Source: Pseudopelagicola sp. (lineage in GTDB: Bacteria > Pseudomonadota > Alphaproteobacteria > Rhodobacterales > Rhodobacteraceae). From it: DNA of 42,953 nt. The notes beneath the pieces were generated by a model. It had not been told where the DNA came from. It searched no databases and was given only the letters and a program-made list of their open reading frames with translations. How positions within the stretch are numbered: position 1 is the stretch's first letter; each line of letters starts with the position of its first letter. The stretch lies in assembly GCA_026195905.1 (NCBI GenBank), contig JAPHRE010000030.1, positions 1 to 42,953 of the forward strand. Reading direction: 5' to 3'. The translations under genes and the position numbers were made by a program. This document shows positions 16,758-22,010 of this stretch, in pieces.

Positions 16758-21112
<4,355 letters not shown>

Positions 21113-21120
21113 CGACGCGG

Positions 21121-21155
21121 GTTCTCTTTTGTTCTCAAATGTTCTCATAAAGTTC
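21121..21155 (+). promoter_or_regulatory. GTTC repeat cluster with a LexA-type SOS box
   Basis: Four GTTC half-sites occur at 21121, 21131, 21141 and 21152. The first three are 10 bp apart, each followed by TC. The last pair, 21141-21155, is an exact GTTC-N7-GTTC, the LexA operator described for alphaproteobacteria such as Rhodobacter. It ends 66 bases before the 40-aa peptide gene and begins 9 bases after recG. I infer SOS control of the downstream peptide. Confidence 0.65.
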
Positions 21156-21221
21156 TTTACAGAGCGTTAAGGATGTGAGAACAAAGGAGCAACAAAAACG
21201 ATATTGAGCAGGAGCAGCCCC

Positions 21222-21344
21222 ATGATGACCCAGATTCGCACCGCGATCCGCAATTCCCGCGCAACGCTTTTCCAGGATGCCCTTGGTGGCGTCGCTCTTG
21301 TCGTGATGATGCTTGTGGCGCTGCACGTGCCCGGCGTCTCGTAA
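21222..21344 (+). CDS. 40-aa single-span membrane peptide, probably SOS-controlled
   Basis: A small gene with AGGAG at 21210-21214, 7 bases before the ATG at 21222 (a second ATG follows at 21225). The product begins MMTQIRTAIRNSRATLFQDA, an amphipathic basic segment, followed by about 20 hydrophobic residues (LGGVALVVMMLVALHVPGVS) that form one membrane span. I recall very similar 35-40 aa hypothetical proteins in many Rhodobacteraceae, but no described function. The upstream GTTC-N7-GTTC box suggests LexA repression. A tiny SOS-induced inner-membrane protein recalls Caulobacter SidA, a 29-aa divisome inhibitor, though I see no sequence similarity to it. Confidence 0.75.
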   Translation: MMTQIRTAIRNSRATLFQDALGGVALVVMMLVALHVPGVS

Positions 21345-21503
21345 CCCCGGTTTTCTGCCTGCGTGATCACGCCGGGTATTGTCCTCTGTATCCTGTCCCC
21401 AAATCGGATGCCTGAGACTGTGACTGCCTGTCCCTAAGTCTTTGAAGGGTGCCTCACTCCCCTTCGGACGATATCCGGGTCCCTCGTGTGATCGCGTTTT
21501 ACT
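21345..21503 (+). other. structured 3' region after the 40-aa peptide
   Basis: About 160 bases without a gene between the peptide stop and the terminator. CTGTCCC(C/T)AA occurs twice (around 21391 and 21430). GAAGGG pairs with CCCTTC across a short loop (about 21443-21466), and GGAC pairs with GTCC just after it. It could be a long structured 3' UTR or an independent small RNA using the terminator at 21504-21539. No known RNA family is recognised. Confidence 0.35.
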
Positions 21504-21539
21504 CCGCCGCCTTCCTAATGGAAGTGCGGCGGTTTTTTT
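21504..21539 (+). terminator. strong Rho-independent terminator
   Basis: CCGCCGC plus CTTCC (21504-21515) pairs with GGAAG and GCGGCGG (21520-21532), with one bulged T and a 4-base loop, followed by seven T residues. It ends the plus-strand transcript from the peptide gene and sits 25 bp before the convergent NifU-like gene. Confidence 0.85.
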
Positions 21540-21563
21540 ATCTACAAGGAGTGAAGGAGTGGC

Positions 21564-22010
21564 TTAGGCGGCGGTCTCTGCGTCGTTTATCGCGTCGGCG
21601 GTGGCCTCAAGGGCCAGCAGGATCGAGGCATGCCGGTTGGCAAACTCGCGGGCCGGGCGCAGAACTTCGAGCTCGTCAAAGGGCGCAGGCGGGGTTGGGC
21701 CGTCATTTTTGAGCATATCGCGCAGGGCATCGCGCGCGGCTTCGATTTCGCCGCGGGTCCGGCCGATGACATTGGCCCCGACAACCGAGGCTGCGGCCTG
21801 ACCCAGGGCACAGGCTTTGACATCCTGACCAAAGGCGGAAACGCGCCCATCTTCCAGCGCGACATCCACCGTCACCGTTGAGCCGCACAGGGGCGCGCGT
21901 TTCTTCACCGTCGCCTGCGGTTCGGCAAGGCGAGTGGTGTGCGGTATATTGGCCGCAAGTGCTAAAATGCGCCCGGAATAGAGCTTGATGAGATCGGTTT
22001 CGCCGGACAT
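21564..22010 (-). CDS. NifU/IscU-like iron-sulfur scaffold, third Cys missing
   Basis: A 148-aa protein of the IscU/NifU N-terminal fold, normally the platform for Fe-S cluster assembly. It has I-K-L-Y-S-G-R-I-L near the N-terminus, the first scaffold Cys at residue 42 (APLCGSTVTV) and the second at 67 (VKACALGQAAAS). Where IscU has H-C-S-I-L-A, this protein reads H-A-S-I-L-L, so the third ligand or sulfur-acceptor Cys is Ala. Start at ATG 22010, with AAGGG upstream on the minus strand; a longer open frame to 22478 overlaps hisI and is rejected. It is divergent from hisI with a 66-bp gap. No other Fe-S assembly gene is nearby, so a role as carrier or a specialised scaffold is inference. Confidence 0.8.
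   Translation of the reverse strand: MSGETDLIKLYSGRILALAANIPHTTRLAEPQATVKKRAPLCGSTVTVDVALEDGRVSAFGQDVKACALGQAAASVVGANVIGRTRGEIEAARDALRDMLKNDGPTPPAPFDELEVLRPAREFANRHASILLALEATADAINDAETAA

Follow-up and report, generated by a model that had tools for sequence, protein, structure and literature searches.

Results

Layout of the locus downstream of recG

The window, i.e. the whole 42,953-nucleotide stretch of Pseudopelagicola sp. DNA that was analysed, carries immediately behind recG a locus composed of the following features:

18998-21112, plus strand: recG (NCBIfam RecG equivalog), ending just 5' of the peptide locus
21121-21124 and 21131-21134, plus strand: two extra GTTC half-sites, 10 bp apart, read from the window
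21141-21155, plus strand: box 1, a LexA-type operator GTTC-N7-GTTC (GTTCTCATAAAGTTC), with GTTC at 21141 and 21152
21156-21161, plus strand: putative -35-like element TTTACA, proposed from the recurrence of TTTAC after box 1
21179-21193, minus strand: box 2, a degenerate LexA-type operator (GAACAAAGGAGCAAC), reading GAAC-N7-CAAC on the plus strand and GTTG-N7-GTTC on the minus strand
21210-21214, plus strand: ribosome site AGGAG, read from the window
21222-21344, plus strand: 40-codon ORF for a predicted one-helix membrane peptide, ATG at 21222, TAA at 21342-21344
21355-21503, plus strand: structured 3' RNA, three hairpins with C-rich loops plus a closing stem that contains an internal loop
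21504-21539, plus strand: terminator as read from the fold, a hairpin (21504-21532) followed by seven T residues (21533-21539)

Read from the window, the 40-codon ORF, the AGGAG and the four GTTC half-sites all lie where the first-pass annotation had placed them. Its description of a 40-aa ORF behind recG with AGGAG and one hydrophobic segment is confirmed at 21222-21344, as is that of four GTTC motifs, the last two forming an exact GTTC-N7-GTTC, at 21121-21155; the motifs start at 21121, 21131, 21141 and 21152 and are thus spaced by 10, 10 and 11 nt. It missed box 2 (21179-21193) as well as the structured RNA and the terminator hairpin (21355-21539).

The gene context is stable. RecG lies directly 5' of the peptide in all 30 loci of the first-read set, and the two genes beyond the locus, a minus-strand gene and hisI, are present in 29 of them. 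The convergent neighbour in the window (21564-22010, minus strand, 148 aa), likewise found beside the peptide locus in 29 of 30 relatives, had no Pfam match at E 0.001; we take it to resemble an iron-sulfur scaffold protein.

Conservation of the peptide

The peptide contains one hydrophobic segment, with a 17-residue Kyte-Doolittle mean of up to 2.44, and its predicted model consists of one helix spanning residues 2-39 (mean pLDDT 84.9). Going by such predictions, it very probably resides in the inner membrane. A basic N-terminus, proposed in the first-pass annotation, does not hold as a family feature, the net charge of the first 20 residues ranging from -3 to +3 in 77 relatives, with a mean of +0.48.

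In a search of 100 genomes, the peptide was detected in all 25 members of the genus, including the window (E 1.2e-10 or better), and also in many other Rhodobacteraceae outside the genus. A 14-row profile identified it in 253 of 295 Rhodobacteraceae genomes, representing 252 of 294 genera, at E <= 0.05, a threshold at which the weakest matches are uncertain. Within a class-wide sample of 240 genomes, it was matched in three members of the family, while the other 237, whose families are partly listed, yielded two weak matches (E 0.0018 and 0.0065). Codon comparisons indicate that purifying selection acts on the peptide, with a dN/dS of about 0.28 across 449 pairs of at least 50% identity among 51 relatives of 40 codons, estimated at a high dS of 1.4. 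Three residues, D19, G22 and P37, are invariant in all 51 peptides. Searches with 14 family members returned no Pfam, NCBIfam or PHROGs match below E 0.05, and, at E up to 1, no PDB sequence matched the peptide.

Two operators at fixed spacing

The LexA operator of alphaproteobacteria has been described as GTTC-N7-GTTC (PMC12700426, PMC3323433). An isolated occurrence of this motif was rejected as evidence, being at chance level both in the window (one exact copy observed, 1.27 expected) and genome-wide (76 copies, compared with 134 for a reversed-pattern control). Since one copy is expected by chance in the window, the evidence has to come from conservation. We therefore considered a promoter set of 135 loci from 131 genomes, four of them present twice, which had been picked by the peptide or the RNA only; the positions of 60 of them came from the matches that the peptide profile search of the Rhodobacteraceae had listed. 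Box 1, and hence the operator that characterises the alphaproteobacterial LexA regulon, is present in the promoters of 132 of the 135 loci, as opposed to 0.12% of shuffled upstream regions. Box 2, in the form GAAC-N7-NAAC, is found in 133 loci counting the window (132 as scanned) and in 1.1% of shuffled regions, with a perfect GAAC-N7-GAAC in four loci only. The distance between the two boxes is 37-39 nt in 131 loci counting the window (130 as scanned) and exactly 38 nt in 120. Conservation of peptide and box in relatives had been named beforehand as the point on which the proposal of an SOS-induced peptide could fail; both are conserved, the former in 253 of 295 genomes and the latter in 132 of 135 loci.

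The control region as a whole is conserved. Across 20 genomes, the pattern GTTCTNNNAAAGTTCTT occurs at 16 sites, never twice in one genome and in 16 of 16 cases before the peptide, with a single site for the reversed control. When 84,980 species, each represented by one genome, were scanned with TGTTCTNANAAAGTTCTTTAC, at least 118 matches came up, and the 80 among the matches listed were examined. The peptide (E < 1e-3) was present at 77 of these 80 listed matches, RecG upstream at 76 and box 2 at 78. Two of the listed matches (L177, L183) are chance hits in unrelated bacteria, in one (L196) the peptide reaches no better than E 0.0018, one (L228) is cut off upstream and one (L233) lacks RecG. 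Conservation extends to letters that the scan did not specify: the GTTC before box 1 and TGAGAACAAA..GCAAC are conserved at 78-99% per base, with values of 88-94% per base for the GTTC 10 bp 5' of box 1 in 78 named loci. The mean information content between +36 and +55 is 1.26 bits, compared with 0.33 bits in the spacer and 0.18 bits in the flank.

Directly 3' of box 1, TTTAC recurs in 113 of the 132 loci with this box, the variants including TTGAT (seven loci), TTGAC (two) and TGGAC (two). This motif looks like a -35 element, and boxes 1 and 2 would therefore flank the core promoter. Two observations speak against this placement: a consensus scanner reported no sigma-70 promoter at the peptide locus, and a perfect box 2 is confined to four of the 135 loci.

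In 20 relatives, the operator is present in the form GAAC-N7-GAAC in 20 of 20 lexA promoters and 20 of 20 recA promoters. Both boxes of the peptide locus are held at fixed spacing in nearly all relatives, and the same operator is found at lexA and recA; for this reason, the comparison of promoters gives good support to the LexA control put forward in the first-pass annotation, and the peptide transcript is likely to be controlled by LexA. Binding of LexA at the two boxes themselves appears quite probable on the same comparative grounds. That they belong to a different repressor is improbable: such a protein would suit the unusually strong conservation of the box 1 spacer letters, the presence of three or four half-sites in place of two, and the degeneracy of box 2, but the spacing is exactly that of alphaproteobacterial LexA in 132 of 135 loci and the operator is shared with lexA and recA of the relatives.

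Some further observations concern these promoters. In 12 of the 20 recA promoters (L051-L070), a GTTC-N7-GATC is located further upstream and may constitute a second, imperfect LexA site, an arrangement similar to the layout before the peptide. In many lexA promoters (L031-L050), the box lies within TTGACA-N17-TAGAAC, so that the operator appears to include the -10 element. Putative LexA sites have also been reported at recG of some alphaproteobacteria (PMC3323433, section 7).

A structured RNA behind the peptide gene

The stretch between the stop codon and the T-run folds with -84.1 kcal/mol (z -7.6; 0 of 200 shuffles as good) into three hairpins and a closing stem that carries an internal loop; the terminator hairpin comes next. 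Three sources underlie this fold: single-sequence predictions that were compared visually, covariance models, and a structure fitted manually to eight rows. Single-sequence folds gave the same shape, as judged by eye, in most of 26 aligned relatives; seven of these 26 rows had been left out of the hand alignment beforehand, and eight of the remaining 19, all from the same genus, were used to build the covariance model R1. RNAalifold on the raw alignment recovered the fold in part only (16 pairs).

R1 found the RNA in 29 of the 30 first-read loci, L029 being the exception; two of these hits were weak, with E values of 0.02 and 0.16. Changes on both sides were seen at 28 of 37 pairs in the alignment of the sequences found by R1, with 92.8% of cells paired (reached by 0 of 500 shuffles), and at all 37 pairs in a 71-row alignment, with 494 such cells (0 of 500 shuffles) and 91.8% of cells paired, compared with 30-47% in slid controls; these counts lean towards the model, because the alignments were fitted to it. 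Among the 80 listed scan loci, R1 yielded 52 hits, 51 of them directly 3' of the peptide, which makes it the 3'-end RNA of a gene behind LexA-type boxes. A further model, R2, gave 62 hits in the same loci, 61 of which lay behind the peptide, corresponding to 61 of the 77 peptide loci, at a median gap of 7 nt. One of the 52 R1 hits and 26 of the 62 R2 hits are identical to a training row, and the window RNA, which scores 94.4 bits with R2, is itself part of the R2 training set.

Under strict filters, R1 hit 72 and R2 104 of the 295 Rhodobacteraceae genomes. Given that the peptide was found in 253 of them, many may lack the RNA or have a copy that has diverged too far. Of the 240 genomes sampled across the class, R2 detected the RNA in the three family members that also have the peptide match and in none of the other 237. 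A search of positions 20900-21800 against Rfam returned no family at E up to 5. The single-stranded regions are variations on a common theme: CUGCC occurs in the leader and again in loops 2 and 3, loop 1 has UGUCCC, and the internal loop has GUCCC. In 55 of 71 rows, loop 2 reads exactly CUGCC. An ad hoc rule placed a hairpin plus T-run behind the peptide at 69 of the 77 peptide loci. A consensus scan reported no terminator-like site at 21504-21539 of the window, perhaps because the stem holds a bulge.

Discussion

The recG-adjacent peptide, boxes and RNA found in many Rhodobacteraceae look like an undescribed damage-response unit. Full-text searches, which covered main texts outside subscription papers and supplements, found no report of a peptide or RNA beside recG in Rhodobacteraceae and no SOS checkpoint effector for this family; in the available text of PMC5107571 and PMC4809877, the terms recG, SOS and LexA had no match. 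The interest of the locus lies in a combination that the first-pass annotation had not brought together: a peptide present family-wide, a pair of operators whose spacing is fixed and, on what would be the same transcript, an RNA that covaries, with neither peptide nor RNA belonging to a known family. Operators, protein and RNA can evidently all be conserved in a 40-codon gene for which there is no family model. Rhodobacteraceae are abundant marine bacteria. The strong conservation of the locus, together with the absence of a match to its peptide or RNA in the libraries searched, makes the question of the damage checkpoint of these bacteria directly testable.

Several known systems offer points of comparison. 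SidA of Caulobacter crescentus is a 29-aa, SOS-induced inner-membrane inhibitor of division that interacts with FtsW (PMC4211646). The peptide described here resembles it, by description, as a tiny one-span peptide behind a LexA-type operator of the same spacing, and would likewise be a short single-span inner-membrane peptide under LexA-type control, its location being predicted; it differs in its length of 40 aa, the presence of two boxes and the conserved structured 3' RNA. DinR of Klebsiella pneumoniae is an sRNA that is processed from the 3' end of the LexA-controlled dinI mRNA and blocks ftsZ translation (PMC10907235). Both are 3' RNAs of a gene with LexA-type control, but the one studied here has its own three-hairpin fold, its upstream gene encodes a 40-aa peptide, and pairing with ftsZ is not supported. 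SidA and DinR are analogies for the peptide and the RNA, not families to which they belong. Repeated C-rich single-stranded motifs, as seen in the 3' RNA, are also a feature of the CcsR sRNAs of Rhodobacter, which differ from it in motif (CUGCC and UGUCCC here) and neighbourhood.

On this basis, a working model can be outlined. LexA would occupy two operators, one before the -35-like element and one in the region of the -10 element and the transcription start, and thereby keep the gene off. Upon DNA damage, the loss of LexA would open the promoter, as suggested by the boxes, and give rise to a transcript of about 350 nt that may start near 21190-21200 and end at 21539. Its first product would be the peptide of 40 aa, a single helix in the inner membrane that most likely serves as a checkpoint effector and targets a membrane machine, for instance FtsW/FtsI/FtsN, in the manner of SidA. 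The second would be the 3' RNA, a stable molecule of three hairpins; its C-rich loops probably target other RNAs or serve as the binding site of a protein. Sequence comparison establishes the ORF and the purifying selection on it, both boxes, the RNA fold and their linkage, and a checkpoint role of the peptide is plausible by analogy; that it blocks division, as SidA does, is possible, if rather doubtful. Tentatively, at somewhat less than even chances, we favour the reading that LexA represses one transcript from which both a membrane checkpoint peptide and a structured RNA are made. With similar reserve, we propose that the locus is a dual-output SOS gene that lies behind recG in most Rhodobacteraceae, combines a checkpoint peptide with a new family of regulatory RNAs with three C-rich loops, and serves this family as its standard damage checkpoint, one that has so far gone unseen. 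If true, this would provide an example, from the alphaproteobacteria, of a structured regulatory RNA that LexA controls.

The two products also admit other readings. A one-helix hydrophobic peptide behind LexA-type boxes would suit an SOS peptide similar to TisB and DinQ, the type I toxin peptides of Escherichia coli, which share with it SOS-type control and a single membrane span; DinQ, which has one transmembrane segment and is regulated by the SOS response, is reported to depolarise the membrane (PMC3567139). On this reading, the peptide would insert into the inner membrane, lower the membrane potential and slow growth during damage, while the 3' RNA would protect the message or limit its translation. 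We consider this unlikely. DinQ is part of a type I system that includes an antisense RNA. The peptide studied here is found at one and the same place through most of the Rhodobacteraceae, with D19, G22 and P37 invariant, and a defined protein partner suits a single fixed locus with invariant residues better than a DinQ-like action.

The case for an independent role of the RNA is more balanced, and we give its action in trans an even chance. It could instead serve as a stability or processing element of the peptide mRNA without a trans function of its own, a reading that is a serious contender, if just short of evenly poised. The near-constant position of the RNA behind the peptide (51 of 52 R1 and 61 of 62 R2 hits) and the lack of support for ftsZ as its target speak for such a role, but the letters of its single-stranded loops, such as the CUGCC of loop 2 in 55 of 71 rows, are conserved beyond what the stabilisation of a fold would need. 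The dual-output model assigns these loops a function in trans, and ftsZ was considered as a target, with DinR of Klebsiella as the precedent. Hairpin 2 with loop 2 of the 3' RNA (ACUGCCUGU) can pair with the ACAGGCGGA site of ftsZ. The scores of the RNA-ftsZ duplexes reached a mean z of -1.10 relative to shuffled leaders in 22 genomes, and 20 of 362, 124 of 341 and 63 of 361 sampled genes, defined by home-made gene calls, scored as well as or better than ftsZ; the ftsZ stretch is itself part of these background samples, and in the first of them the best-scoring entry is an ORF that runs antisense to the RNA. An action of the 3' RNA on the ftsZ ribosome site is thus not supported by the duplex tests and is kept as a lead. 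The ftsZ leaders of 23 genomes (L338-L360) have the near-invariant ACAGGCGGA ribosome site in common, and many of them carry TAGG(C/T)A(G/A)AA further upstream.
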